Assembly (NCBI RefSeq): GCF_017948675.1
Contig: NZ_JAGFBU010000002.1
Location: 186,001-250,000, forward strand
Length of the DNA stretch: 64,000 bases
Source: Flavobacterium flabelliforme
Lineage (GTDB): Bacteria > Bacteroidota > Bacteroidia > Flavobacteriales > Flavobacteriaceae
Reading direction: 5' to 3'
The position numbers and the translations under genes are program-made. The notes under the pieces were generated by a model. It was not told where the DNA came from. It did not search any database and saw only the letters and a list, made by a program, of their open reading frames with translations. Positions 21,501 through 44,706 of this stretch are shown here, piece by piece (positions within the stretch are counted from its first letter, which is position 1; every line of letters begins with the position of its first letter).

Positions 21501-22979
21501 TTAAACACTAAAAGTAGTTCCTTCTTTACCATCTTTCAATTGAATTCCTAACGCTATCAATTGATCTCTAATTTGATCAGACAAAGCAAAATTCTTATTG
21601 TCTCTTGCTTGTTTTCTCATTTCGATTAGGATATTTACTGTTCCTTCTAATTTGTCGTTATTGCTATCGGATACTTTTTCATCTTCCAGTCCTAATACAT
21701 CAAATACAAACGCATTCATTGCTTTAGAAAATAGCTCTAAATCGGCTAGATTTAAACTTTCTTTGCCATCGTTTAATAAGTTGATATATTTTACACCTTC
21801 AAATAATTGTGCAATTAAGATTGGCGAGTTAAAATCGTCATTCATGGCATCATAACAAGACTGTTTCCATGCTGCTATATCAATAGTACTTTTTGTATTT
21901 GCGTTTATTTCTTTTAGCAAACTAATTGCTTCCATCAAACGTTTGTACCCTTTTTCTGCAGCAACAATTGCATCGTCAGAGAAATCAAGAATGCTTCTAT
22001 AATGAGCTTGCAACATAAAAAAACGTGCTACTGAAGCTGAAAAAGCTTTGCTTAAAATAGTATTATCTCCAGTCAATATTTCCCTTGGTAAAATATTGTT
22101 ACCAGTAGATTTAGCCATTTTTTTACCATTTAAGGTAAGCATATTGGCATGCATCCAATAATTTACCGGAGTTTGCCCAGTACAAGCTTCATTTTGAGCA
22201 ATTTCACATTCATGATGAGGGAATTTCAAATCCATTCCGCCACCATGAATGTCAAAATGATTGCCTAAATATTTAGTGCTCATAGCAGTACATTCCAAAT
22301 GCCAACCCGGAAAACCATCGCTCCAAGGCGAAGGCCAACGCATGATGTGTTGTGGTTCTGCTTTTTTCCAAAGTGCAAAATCCTGTGGATTTCTCTTGTC
22401 ACTTTGACCATCAAGATCGCGGGTGTTTGCCAACATATCCTCAATATTACGACCACTTAAGCGTCCGTAATGATTGGTTTTGTTGAATTTTACCACATCA
22501 AAATATACCGATCCGTTCGCTTCATATCCAATTCCATTATCAATAATTTTTTTGATAATTTCAATTTGTTCAATTATGTGTCCAGTTGCTGTTGGCTCAA
22601 TACTGGGTGGCAAAAAGTTAAAAGCATTTAAGATATCATGAAAATCTACCGTATAACGCTGTACAACTTCCATGGGTTCTAGTTGCTCTAAACGTGCTTT
22701 TTTAGCAATTTTATCCTCACCTTCATCCACATCATCTACAATATGACCAACATCAGTAATGTTACGCACATAACGAGTTTTATAGTCCAAGTGTAGTAAA
22801 TACCTAAAGATCACATCAAAAGACATAAAAGTTCGAACGTTTCCTAGGTGAACATTGCTGTAAACGGTAGGTCCACAAACATACATTCCCACATTTCCTT
22901 CATGAATTGGTTTAAATACTTCTTTTTCTCCCGAAAGAGAATTGTATATTTTGAGTGTTTGCGTTTCGTATAAAGGCAT
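21501..22979 (-). CDS. cysS: cysteine-tRNA ligase
   Basis: The 492-residue class I synthetase has zinc ligand Cys35 in CGPTVYSN, the HIGH-type motif HLGN at 44-47, [10 protein letters not shown] and [13 protein letters not shown] for the remaining zinc ligands, and the KMSKS-type loop KMAKSTGN near residue 290. It charges tRNA-Cys in the cytoplasm. It is the first gene of the cysS-yidD-lgt cluster. A structured repeat element (22990-23073) ends about ten bases before its ATG and would lie in its leader if transcription starts further upstream. Confidence 0.96.
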
Positions 22980-22989
22980 TTAGTTTGTT

Positions 22990-23073
22990 TTTTAGGAGCT
23001 AATTCCTGCTTTGCGTTACAATCTTTTTATTTTTAAGAAAAAAAAAAAAGGATTTCCACTACAATCAGGGCTA
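22990..23073 (-). repeat. structured flavobacterial element, copy 1 (candidate small RNA or leader)
   Basis: Read on the minus strand it starts TAGCCCTGATT and ends AGCAGGAATTAGCTCCTAAAA-like. In between is a stem made by AATCCTTTTT pairing with AAAAAGATT, and an outer CCTG/CAGG pairing. The same start, end and pairing layout recurs at 43437-43535 on the plus strand. It lies between folE and cysS with cysS orientation. It may correspond to a known Flavobacteria RNA motif such as Flavo-1; that match is from memory and unverified. Confidence 0.6.
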
Positions 23074-23104
23074 GGGTTTATTGTTTAATGACGAATAAAG
23101 TAAT

Positions 23105-23776
23105 TTAGAACTTAGTCTCTAGTTTAATATAATCTAAAAACTCTCTTCGAGTAACGCTGTCTTTAAATTTTCCACCAAATTCTGATGTTACAGTACTACT
23201 TTCGATATCGCTGATTCCTCTTGAGTTTACGCAAAGGTGTTTGGCATCAATCACACAAGCAACATCTTCGGTTCCTAATGCTTGTTGTAACTCTTGTACA
23301 ATTTGCATCGTCAAACGCTCTTGAACCTGAGGTCTTTTAGAGTAATATTCTACAATTCGGTTCATTTTTGATAAACCAATTACACTTCCATTAGAAATGT
23401 AAGCCACATGTGCTCTTCCTATTATAGGTAATAAATGGTGCTCGCAAGTAGAATATACAATGATATTTTTCTCTACAAGCATTTCGCCGTATTTGTAGTT
23501 GTTGTCAAAAGTAGATGCTTTTGGTTTTCTTTCCGGATTCAAACCTCCAAAAATTTCTTTTACAAACATCTTGGCAACACGATTGGGCGTGCCTTTTAAA
23601 CTATCGTCTGTCAAGTCCATTCCTAGTGTAAGCAAAATACTCTCAACGTCTTTTTTTATTTTTTCAATTTTCTCATCATCTGAAATGGCAAAAGCATCAT
23701 CTCTCACTGGGTTTTTTGCGGATAAACTAATGTGATTATCTCCTATTTCGTCTTGAAATTCTTCTTTATTTATCAT
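23105..23776 (-). CDS. folE: GTP cyclohydrolase I
   Basis: The 223-residue protein has the full FolE core. STCEHHLLPIIG supplies the zinc Cys and His, followed by GLSKMNRIVEYYSKRPQVQE, and AKHLCVNSRGISD gives the second zinc Cys. It makes 7,8-dihydroneopterin triphosphate from GTP, the first step of folate and pterin synthesis, in the cytoplasm. An N-terminal extension of about 25 residues, rich in acidic residues, precedes the conserved domain. It lies upstream of cysS on the same strand, with the structured element in the 125-base gap. Confidence 0.95.
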   Translation of the reverse strand: MINKEEFQDEIGDNHISLSAKNPVRDDAFAISDDEKIEKIKKDVESILLTLGMDLTDDSLKGTPNRVAKMFVKEIFGGLNPERKPKASTFDNNYKYGEMLVEKNIIVYSTCEHHLLPIIGRAHVAYISNGSVIGLSKMNRIVEYYSKRPQVQERLTMQIVQELQQALGTEDVACVIDAKHLCVNSRGISDIESSTVTSEFGGKFKDSVTRREFLDYIKLETKF

Positions 23777-41520: not shown

Positions 41521-43182
41521 TTACTGTTGAGCAGGAATGTAAATGTCAAATTGTGCGCCTTCATTGATTTTTCCTTCAGCAGTGATAAGTCCATGGTGAT
41601 TTTCAATTATTTTTCTTGCGATCGTTAGTCCAATTCCTGTTCCTGGGTATTCTTTTCTATCGTGTAAACGTTGAAATATTTCGAAAATTTTATCTTTATA
41701 TTCTGCTTCAAATCCTATTCCATTATCTTTTATAGTGATATGGTAGTAATCTTTTTTTAATATATAATCAATAGCAGTTGTTGGATCATATTTGATGAAA
41801 TTGCACATGATTACAATATGTGGTTTTTTTCCTGGAATTGAAAATTTAAGGGAGTTACTTATTAAATTTTGAATCAGTTGTCTAAATTGAAACGGAATGA
41901 TATTTATCTCACACAAATCTTTAATCTCTATCGTAGCGTCTTTATCTTGTAGCTCTTCTTTGAGCATTTCTAACGCTTCATTCACTACTTGATTTAAATC
42001 GCTATTTACAAATTTTCTTTGTGTTGTATTTGTTCTTGAATAGGCAAGTAGGTCATTTATAAGCGTTTGCATGTGCAAGGCAGAAAGCTTTGTTCTTTCT
42101 ACATAATATTTACCCATTGCAGATAAATTGTCATACTCTTCTACAAAGATTCTTCCAGAAAAAGACTGGATTTTTCGTAAAGGTTCTTGCAAGTCATGAC
42201 TAGAAATATAGGTAAACGATTCTATTTCCTTATTGGCAATTAATAATTCGTTAGCACGCTTTTCTTTTTCTTTATTTTGAAATTCTAGCTCCTCGTTGGC
42301 AATGATTAGCTCTTCAGCTCGTTTCTGCTTTTCCTGATTTTGATACGCTAATTCTTCATTGGCAATTATTAACTCGGCGGCACGTTTCTCTTTTTCTTTA
42401 TTTTGAAATTCTAGTTCGGTGTTGGCTACAATTAATTCTTCCGCTCGTTTTTGTTTTTCTTGATTTTGGTAGGCAAGTTCAAGATTTGCAATAATTAATT
42501 CGGCTGCACGTTTTTCTTTTTCTTTATTTTGAAACCCTAATTCCGTGTTGGCTACAATTAATTCTTCTGCTCGTTTTTGCTTTTCTTGATTTTGGAAGGC
42601 TAGTTCTTGATTAGCAATAATTAATTCAGCAGCACGTTTTTCTTTTTCTTTGTTTTGATACTTAAGTTCGGTGTTGGCTATAATTAATTCTTCCGCTCTT
42701 TTTTGCTTTTCTTCATTTTGATAAGCTAGTTCTTGATTAGCAATAATTAATTCGGCGGCACGGTTTTCCTTTTCAATATTCTGAAACTTAAGTTCGGTGT
42801 TGGCTACAATTAGTTCTTCCGCTCGTTTTTGCTTTTCTTTATTTTGATACGCTAATTCTTGATTAGCAATGATTAATTCAGCGGCACGATCTTCCTTTTC
42901 ATTATTTTGAAACTCAAGTTGCGTGTTAGCTACAATTAGTTCTTCTGCTAGATTCTGCTTTTCTTGATTCTGAAAAGCTAATTCTTGATTAGCAATGACT
43001 AATTCAGCGGCGCGATTTTCTTTTTCTTTATTTTGAAAAACAAGTTTAGCATTAGCTATAACTAACTGCGCTTCACGTGTTTTTGTTTCAATAATTTGTA
43101 ACGCTAGATTTTTATTTGCTGTTAATAATTGAGAGGAATAGTTCTCTTCATCGTCATTCTTAGAAGTAATTACTGTAGGCAT
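41521..43182 (-). CDS. soluble sensor histidine kinase with long 21-residue repeat coiled coil
   Basis: The 553-residue protein has no signal peptide or membrane helix. Residues 16-309 are fourteen 21-residue repeats, alternating between a version with ANQELAYQ and one with ANTELEFQ. Each is exactly three heptads, so a continuous parallel coiled coil is expected. The kinase core follows without a break: SSHDLQEPLRKIQSF with His329, QLIQNLISNSLKFS (N box), DNGIGFE and GTGIGLTIARKI. No PAS, GAF or receiver domain is present, so the coiled coil itself must be the input or must receive it from a partner. No response regulator is adjacent. The kinase core resembles that of the CHASE3 kinase about 3 kb away. 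Confidence 0.92.
   Translation of the reverse strand: MPTVITSKNDDEENYSSQLLTANKNLALQIIETKTREAQLVIANAKLVFQNKEKENRAAELVIANQELAFQNQEKQNLAEELIVANTQLEFQNNEKEDRAAELIIANQELAYQNKEKQKRAEELIVANTELKFQNIEKENRAAELIIANQELAYQNEEKQKRAEELIIANTELKYQNKEKEKRAAELIIANQELAFQNQEKQKRAEELIVANTELGFQNKEKEKRAAELIIANLELAYQNQEKQKRAEELIVANTELEFQNKEKEKRAAELIIANEELAYQNQEKQKRAEELIIANEELEFQNKEKEKRANELLIANKEIESFTYISSHDLQEPLRKIQSFSGRIFVEEYDNLSAMGKYYVERTKLSALHMQTLINDLLAYSRTNTTQRKFVNSDLNQVVNEALEMLKEELQDKDATIEIKDLCEINIIPFQFRQLIQNLISNSLKFSIPGKKPHIVIMCNFIKYDPTTAIDYILKKDYYHITIKDNGIGFEAEYKDKIFEIFQRLHDRKEYPGTGIGLTIARKIIENHHGLITAEGKINEGAQFDIYIPAQQ
42256..43137 (-). repeat. 14 x 63-bp in-frame tandem repeat in the histidine kinase
   Basis: Fourteen consecutive 63-base units encode residues 16-309 of the kinase. 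Units alternate in two types, giving a 126-base super-period; the outer N-terminal units are more diverged (SSQLLTANKNLALQ). Each unit keeps the frame, so gain or loss of units would change only coiled-coil length. Confidence 0.93.
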
Positions 43183-43223
43183 AGGAACTATTTTTTTACT
43201 TATTTATTTTTTTAAAAGCAAAC

Positions 43224-43257
43224 CAAAGGTAGTATAAGAACTTACTTTATTTTTCAA
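43224..43257 (-). promoter_or_regulatory. promoter of the repeat histidine kinase
   Basis: On the minus strand TTG (43257-43255) and an exact TACCTTTG (43231-43224) are 23 bases apart. The ATG follows about 41 bases downstream. Confidence 0.5.
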
Positions 43258-43436
43258 TTTCATTTATCTTTTAATAATTAAATTGTAAGGAATGTATTTT
43301 TCTTAAAAATGGAGAATAAATTATTGTTTATCGTAGACTATTTTTACACCACTATAATTAAATATTAAAATGAAAACTCTTGTTAGAAATTAACAAGTAC
43401 TCCCCATTTGATACTAGTTTAGTTATTATAAAACCT

Positions 43437-43535
43437 TAGCCCTGATTACAGCGATATCCTTTTATTTTAGTTTGGAGCGCTAGCGTAAAACTATAATAAA
43501 AGATACAAGCGGAAAGCAGGAAATAGCTCCTAAAA
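43437..43535 (+). repeat. structured flavobacterial element, copy 2 (candidate small RNA)
   Basis: It starts TAGCCCTGATT and ends GCAGGAAATAGCTCCTAAAA-like, as does copy 1 near cysS. A stem of about 17 pairs runs from TATCCTTTTATT (from 43455) to AATAAAAGATA (to 43505), with one bulge and one mismatch. CCTG (43441-43444) pairs with CAGG (43517-43520) outside it, and a GC-rich apex (43474-43487) holds CGCTAGCG. It lies between the divergent histidine kinase and prfA genes, before the prfA -7 element. Confidence 0.62.
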
Positions 43536-43629
43536 CTGCATTTATAGTAAAGGAGAAAAATTGAAAAGAGCAAGTATCGAACTATAAATAAAAATTTCGT
43601 AATTTTGCACTCCAATAAAAGAACAGAAA
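43536..43629 (+). promoter_or_regulatory. prfA upstream region with -7 element
   Basis: TAATTTTG at 43600-43607 is an exact TAnnTTTG match 22 bases before the prfA ATG. No good -33 was seen. Because this element lies downstream of the structured repeat, the repeat would not be part of a transcript starting here. The whole gap 43183-43629 has no protein gene. Confidence 0.45.
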
Positions 43630-44706
43630 ATGTTAGATAGACTTCAAATAGTAAAACAACGTTTCGATGAGATCTCGGATTTAATCATTCAACCAGATGT
43701 AATCTCGGATCAGAAACGTTATGTGCAATTGAATCAAGAGTATAAAAGTTTAAAAGCTTTGGCAGAAAAACGCGATGAATACGTGGTTTTGATGGCCAAT
43801 ATTGATGAAGCAAACGAAATAATTGCTGATAATAGTGATGCAGATATGACCGAAATGGCCAAAATGCAACTGGATGAAGCCAAAGACAGATTGCCAACTC
43901 TAGAGGAGGAAATCAAATTTATGTTGATTCCTAAGGATGCTGAGGATGCAAAAAATGTTATGGTGGAGATTCGTGCCGGAACGGGTGGGGATGAAGCTAG
44001 TATTTTTGCAGGAGATCTATTTCGTATGTATACCAAATATTGTGAAAATAGAGGCTGGAGAACTTCGGTTGTAGATATGAATGAAGGAACTTCTGGCGGA
44101 TTCAAAGAGGTTATTTTTGAAGTAACTGGTGAAGATGTATATGGAACTTTGAAATTTGAAGCTGGTGTTCACCGCGTACAACGTGTTCCTCAAACGGAAA
44201 CACAAGGACGTGTACATACTTCGGCAGCGACTGTGATGGTGCTTCCTGAAGCGGAAGAGTTTGATGTACAAATTGATATGAATGATGTGCGTGTCGATTT
44301 TTTCTGTTCGTCAGGACCAGGAGGACAATCGGTAAATACAACTAAATCGGCAGTTCGTTTGACGCATATTCCTACAGGATTAGTGGCACAATGTCAAGAT
44401 CAAAAATCGCAACACAAGAATAAGGATAAAGCTTTTGGTGTTTTACGTTCTCGTTTGTACGAACAAGAATTAGCAAAAAAACAAGCCGAAGACGCTGTAA
44501 AACGTACATCGCAAGTAAGCTCGGGTGACCGTTCTGCAAAAATTCGTACCTATAATTATTCACAAGGTCGTGTAACGGATCACAGAGTTGGTATGGATGT
44601 TTTTGATATGGATGGTGTAATGAACGGAAAAATCCAGAAACTAATTGACGAGTTGCAATTAGTGAACAACATGGAAAAATTAAAGGAAGCCAGCGAAGTT
44701 TTCTAA
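43630..44706 (+). CDS. prfA: peptide chain release factor 1
   Basis: The 358-residue class I release factor has the GGQ peptidyl-hydrolysis motif in [20 protein letters not shown]. The codon-reading tripeptide is of the RF1 PxT type ([14 protein letters not shown]), so UAA and UAG are expected to be read. It acts on the ribosome at termination. A terminator follows, and the structured element lies about 95 bases upstream. Confidence 0.95.

Follow-up and report, generated by a model that had tools for sequence, protein, structure and literature searches.

The ERIC elements of enterobacteria are intergenic imperfect palindromes of about 80-130 bases, for which to our knowledge no mover is known. 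They are also named in passages of a study on BOX of Streptococcus pneumoniae, an element with many intergenic, structured copies that are internally modular and variable (PMC3049150). According to the same passages the spread of BOX lies in the past and new insertions are few, and its mobilisation is ascribed to an insertion sequence. For REP elements in Flavobacterium, passages of PMC12306157 give counts in two Flavobacterium species. Flavo-1 was described as a candidate RNA by Weinberg et al. 2010 in the pertinent passage of that paper (PMC2864571), and Rfam classes it as an sRNA gene (RF01705; gene; sRNA) with a model of 76 positions. A passage of a transcriptome study of F. psychrophilum reports that matches to Flavo-1 were sense or antisense to transcribed regions alike and that many were outside of them; because of this indifference to the direction of transcription the passage offers no clue to the function (PMC9723704). 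While the family itself is already known, its natural history and a second form are added here; no description of either was found in the literature searched, which had most subscription journals outside it.

The window, i.e. the whole stretch of 64,000 nucleotides of Flavobacterium flabelliforme that was analysed, contains two copies of Flavo-1, both of type A as defined below. One is located 5' of prfA at 43434..43535 on the plus strand, the other in the gap between folE and cysS at 22990..23076 on the minus strand. Both were recognised by the Rfam model, by sequence and by fold; the Rfam cores found by cmscan spanned 43434-43527 (+, 55.8 bits) and 22998-23076 (-, 79.1 bits) and exceeded the curated gathering score of 42 bits. 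The lower score of the prfA-side copy fits with its core departing from the type A consensus at GATTACAGC and GATACAAGCGG. A preliminary description of this DNA had proposed two structured copies at essentially these positions, with a common end and with cysS and prfA as neighbours. The data agree: the conserved 3' end TAGCTCCT is common to both copies and runs beyond the Rfam model to 43531, and NCBIfam matches identified prfA (peptide chain release factor 1, 43630..44706, +; TIGR00019, NF001859) and cysS (cysteine--tRNA ligase, 21501..22979, -; TIGR00435), with folE (GTP cyclohydrolase I, 23105..23776, -; NF006824, TIGR00063) adjoining as well. Between the prfA-side element and its gene lies a promoter-like motif, TAATTTTG, at 43600..43607 (+), which follows the consensus TAnnTTTG. 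No Rfam family besides Flavo-1 was detected in 43300-43700 at E <= 1, and a search for intrinsic terminators (a G+C-rich hairpin followed by a T run) gave no terminator-like site on either strand of 43183-43640. On its other side the element is flanked by a histidine-kinase-like gene (ORF 41521-43182, -), within which a 126-base tandem repeat of 6.5 copies with a sub-period of 63 bases occupies 42232-43046.

Folding of the plus strand of the prfA-side copy is predicted to pair TATCCTTTTATT with AATAAAAGATA. The z-score of this fold was -2.08, with 8 of 200 shuffles folding equally well, and the minus strand of the same stretch was unremarkable (z = -0.17). The copy at 22990-23076 alone folded weakly (z = -0.63).

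A genome-wide search with the Rfam covariance model of Flavo-1 yielded at least 85 matches in the genome of the window, 77 of them above the cut-off. Similar sequences in other Flavobacterium genomes, mentioned in the preliminary description, were indeed abundant, as at least one copy of Flavo-1 was present in 140 of 150 genomes of the genus. A survey of 40 genomes including that of the window had matches in 26, namely 23 of 25 within the genus and 3 of 15 outside. All copy numbers are lower bounds, the candidates scored being at most 150 in the searches of a single genome, at most 89 in the survey of 40 genomes and at most 29 in that of 150.

Type A, defined by the presence of TAGCC, comprises 58 of the 85 copies in the genome of the window. 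Its layout is TAGCCC-N1-GAT-N2, a tip of variable length, and N2'-AGC-N1'-GG with an end similar to AAATAGCTCC. Parsing by regular expression captured 72 of the 85 copies and missed 13; the N2-N2' pair was AT in 34, TA in 21, GC in 9, CG in 3 and something else in 5. For an analysis of covariation we aligned 25 of the 85 copies; they all belong to type A, score at least 60 bits and mostly have short tips. In this alignment 97.5% of the cells were paired compared to 86.1% in shuffles, 37 cells had two-sided changes compared to 8.9, and the covariation score was 0.383 compared to 0.143; none of 500 shuffles reached any of these values. On the other hand, neither the pairs with a two-sided change nor the types of pairs were more numerous than in shuffles (146 and 314 of 500). 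In a set of 160 distinct copies two of the pairs were Watson-Crick in 94% and 89%, compared to 31% and 38% in shuffles. Thus the earlier observation that changes in the stem keep pairing holds in many copies. The selection for structure deduced from it was not provable from two copies alone, while the alignment of 25 copies does surpass its shuffles.

The deviations from perfect pairing differ between the strands. The internal mismatches are mostly G-A on the plus strand, which would be T-C if read on the opposite strand. Among the four pairs of the 160 distinct copies, which are related and thus not independent, the exceptions to pairing were 40 G-T and 9 A-C. Column shuffles gave about 109 G-T to 78 A-C, from which the observed ratio differs with p = 7e-4. 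The excess of G-T was not uniform: two pairs had 10 to 1 and 27 to 3 and N1 had 3 to 0, while N2 ran in the opposite direction with 0 G-T to 5 A-C. The genome of the window alone had 19 G-T to 4 A-C. Because the exceptions favor G-T over A-C, one strand seems to be kept foldable. With these reservations the plus strand of the family appears to be under this constraint, either as RNA or as single-stranded DNA.

The tip occasionally contains a different hairpin. In the relative G132 a hairpin containing TTGCGAGGAACGAAGCAATC replaces the tip at G132:C2:169548 (site 16) and G132:C6:119591 (site 27), with core and flanks kept. With up to 3 substitutions TTGCGAGGAACGAAGCAATC had two matches in 486 kb of pieces from the genome of the window, one of them within a Flavo-1 tip. 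We also considered TTGCGAGGAACGAAGCAATC as a REP flanking RAYT genes and rejected this, as there was no match with up to 4 errors at 11 loci (ten Y1/RAYT loci and L076).

The remaining 27 copies in the genome of the window lack TAGCC. Most of them read GCGTGAGGGAT ... AGCCCGACC, followed by a hairpin of very variable length and then GGTCACGCCC. The predicted plan of this form, type B, has a third arm and an outer stem in addition to the shared core. The outer stem covaries: an exact downstream partner was present in 10 of the 16 parsed copies whose 5' strand departs from the consensus, compared to 1.8 of 16 expected with strands from other copies, the 16 including two misread copies (nos. 67 and 85) and the 10 including no. 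45, whose exact partner is distant with a 4-base partner in place. The exact type B pattern occurred in at least 118 stretches of species genomes, among others from Flavobacterium, Aquimarina, Mesonia, Chryseobacterium, Kaistella, Empedobacter, Chitinophagaceae and Labilibaculum, and CACGC was found further along in 107 of the 118 stretches listed. When seven type B loci were scanned at curated cut-offs, Flavo-1 was the sole matching family. As far as sequence comparison goes, the Rfam model spans only a core of the element, and a three-way-junction form of it is found across Bacteroidota. The prfA site of genome G062 (L132) carries type B in unchanged orientation where relatives carry type A, so the two forms can replace each other in place.

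Two further observations concern type B. The third arm of nos. 57 (C10:1407533, L085), 83 (C21:542462, L104) and 84 (C21:5161, L105) in the genome of the window contains a hairpin of an A-run and a T-run that resembles a bidirectional terminator, as though this arm could accommodate different hairpins. In viral contigs, L337, L338 and L339 each have an exact match to one type B pattern, and there was no match to one type A pattern.

The persistence of individual copies was examined in the relative G132. It is syntenic with the window, the main blocks being 72-88% identical, and shares both window copies. We compared 34 of its at least 66 copies, a non-random sample chosen by clustering, score and synteny. 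The same flanking genes as those of a copy in the genome of the window were present at 24 of the 34. Three matched on one side, six matched no element site of the genome of the window, and one had both flanks there with a difference of 3.7 kb and without a copy. Orientation agreed at 23 of the 24 shared sites; at the remaining one two copies are located between the flanks in the genome of the window, and the G132 copy matches the second by eye and has its orientation. At the nrd site, one of the six, G132 has the element, while in the genome of the window the flanking genes are 96-97% identical and other sequence without an Rfam match lies between them; neither a clean empty site nor a target duplication of the kind expected for a MITE was seen at this site, the one that was read. 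Judged from these comparisons most of the examined Flavo-1 sites are inherited and the element is not actively jumping, because persistence at sites argues against active transposition. Thus the earlier proposal of a mobile element holds with respect to dispersal and some differences in presence or absence, and it does not hold for most of the examined sites, which are inherited.

Within orthologous copies the arms were 0.90 and 0.94 identical, the tips 0.76 and the flanks 0.60 and 0.80 (medians; 19 of 23 pairs could be parsed). When site 14 was left out, because its misparsing accounted for 3 of 5 'broken' cells, the 72 pair cells of orthologues comprised 57 identical ones, 5 with both partners changed, 8 with one partner changed and 2 in which the pair was broken. 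Among 25 sites compared there were four (12, 14, 21 and 49) where both arms had been altered jointly as a module; the interior of site 49 differs between nearly identical flanks. Such joint changes of both arms at a fixed site would be explained by occasional copying or conversion between copies.

Taken together, we see about an even chance that Flavo-1 is a miniature dispersed repeat of Bacteroidota similar to ERIC and BOX, which spread anciently and of which each copy is kept foldable on one strand. It would have spread between genes in the past, with most copies now being inherited in place. Each copy would be kept as a core helix with conserved G-A mismatches on one strand, while the tip would be free to change provided that pairing holds. 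A trans-acting factor may recognise the folded single strand, either as single-stranded DNA during replication or recombination or, at copies that lie in a transcribed region by chance, as RNA, and occasional copying or conversion may take place between copies. A bolder version is speculative and in our view rather improbable: Flavo-1 would be the visible core of a phylum-wide element with a simple form and a three-way junction, each able to take the place of the other at a fixed site. Its long-term maintenance would be due to conversion from copy to copy and to selection for a single-stranded DNA fold of one strand, via a recombination or chromosome-maintenance machinery not yet described.

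A tentative alternative, to which we assign a limited probability, is a functional RNA family. Transcription of its plus strand would start at an atypical or weak promoter or come from read-through, and the RNA, once folded, would act in trans or bind a protein. The covariation, the tolerance of G-T on one strand and the conserved internal G-A mismatches are in line with this, as is the description as a candidate RNA in the passage from 2010 (PMC2864571). Our data on gene context, which rely on ORF calls of at least 80 amino acids, point in another direction. By this measure 82 of the 85 copies in the genome of the window are intergenic. Both flanking genes were antisense to the element in 37 cases and sense in 25, 15 gaps were divergent and 4 convergent, and one copy lay at a contig end; the antisense context (37 of 81) thus exceeds the sense context (25 of 81), and antisense copies scored no worse than sense copies (type A, p = 0.16). 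Type B was examined in 106 copies from named genomes, 19 of which overlapped an ORF and 15 were at an edge; the 72 usable ones were flanked antisense-antisense in 30, sense-sense in 14, divergently in 23 and convergently in 5 cases. TAnnTTTG is a promoter element of Bacteroidetes. It was located upstream of 10 of 85 copies compared to 10-13 of 85 in three control stretches, i.e. without enrichment. The sequence AGTTCT preceded 8 of 85 copies compared to 1-3 in controls, at scattered places. The independence from gene direction and the lack of promoter enrichment argue against leaders and against dedicated sRNA genes. The passage on the F. psychrophilum transcriptome points away from such genes, too (PMC9723704), and the independently transcribed RNA considered in the preliminary description is not supported.

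It appears unlikely that Flavo-1 is a DNA element of chromosome organisation, i.e. a hairpin or cruciform near gene starts which binds a protein or absorbs supercoiling. Of 153 copies whose context was usable, 105 had their 5' side towards a gene start (52 of 81 in the genome of the window, p = 0.051; 53 of 72 type B copies in named genomes, p = 3e-4), and convergent gaps were under-used with 9 of 153 copies compared to 53 of 366 background gaps (p = 0.005), both in favor of such an element. Yet, a double-stranded or cruciform site should show no strand preference. Regular spacing was looked for and rejected, as the 37 copies on contig C10 had a random-like coefficient of variation of 0.99. 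There was also no clear relation to the direction of replication in the one complete genome sampled, G060 (16 windows, 86 copies).

A RAYT (Y1 transposase) that moves or maintains Flavo-1 as a REP-like element is quite improbable. Flavo-1 is a hairpin, it is intergenic and one strand is distinguishable, all of which would suit a RAYT. We searched 40 genomes for Y1_Tnp, compared a five-sequence RAYT alignment with 150 genomes of the genus and ran Rfam on 10 loci. RAYT-like genes were present in 86 of 140 genomes of the genus with Flavo-1 and in 1 of 10 without it (p = 0.002, kinship ignored), and in three genomes such a gene was close to a copy, at 0.6 kb (genome of the window), 1.5 kb (G060) and 2.4 kb (G132). 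However, none of the ten Y1/RAYT loci from ten genomes contained Flavo-1 in flanks of up to 1.5 kb per side, G004 with at least 88 copies and G011 with at least 44 matched neither Y1_Tnp nor RAYT, and conservation of sites was high (24 of 34 G132 copies). A RAYT link is not supported by these searches: the gene appears to be neither generally adjacent nor required, while the association by presence remains. Two RAYT-like genes in the genome of the window, at G000:C10:254811-255353 about 0.6 kb from a Flavo-1 copy and at G000:C53:151665-152213, have in-frame stops.

The prfA site was compared in 70 of the 150 genomes, the 30 best matches and 40 picked by hand. A copy fitting a strict pattern was located upstream of prfA in 35 of the 70, with 37 pattern matches which were all on the prfA strand; two of them (L120 and L123) were farther out than the others. 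Five further loci had the 3' end of the element only, and other loci looked degraded or were without the element. TAnnTTTG occurred at most 90 nt from the prfA start in 68 of the 70 genomes, and the core of the element ended upstream of it in all 34 genomes that have both. Because the core ends upstream of the promoter-like motif, the prfA transcript probably does not include the element, barring a distal promoter. A cis-regulatory leader of prfA and cysS is therefore highly improbable, even though each window copy has the orientation of the gene that follows it, the Rfam core of the cysS copy ends 18 nt ahead of the start codon and the orientation before prfA is constant, as the element is also missing or degraded at prfA in many relatives and other copies are situated beside many genes in either orientation. 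The conservation of sites and the steady orientation at prfA could alternatively signify a cis function.

Flavo-1 has been a candidate RNA lacking an assigned function since 2010. With its persistence, its indifference to gene direction, the one-sided exceptions to pairing and the junction form it can now be tested in a genus amenable to experiment. The same features are a warning that a family of covarying 'RNAs' may turn out to be a dispersed repeat, and matter for the annotation of such families.

The likeness of our copies to Flavo-1 in Rfam is one of sequence and structure above the cut-off within the same phylum. Rfam treats the family as an sRNA gene of 76 positions, whereas we find a dispersed repeat with 3' sequence beyond the model and a second form. 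With REP elements and their RAYT transposases Flavo-1 has in common that it forms short intergenic hairpins in many copies; unlike REP it has no general adjacency to RAYT genes and is present in many copies in genomes without a RAYT. ERIC elements, which belong to another phylum and differ in sequence, are likened to Flavo-1 by description, both being intergenic and in either orientation. BOX has an insertion sequence ascribed as its mover in the passages cited (PMC3049150), while Flavo-1 is without a known mover. By description, not by sequence, BOX and Flavo-1 are alike in behaviour, and we consider these small interspersed repeats its nearest counterparts.
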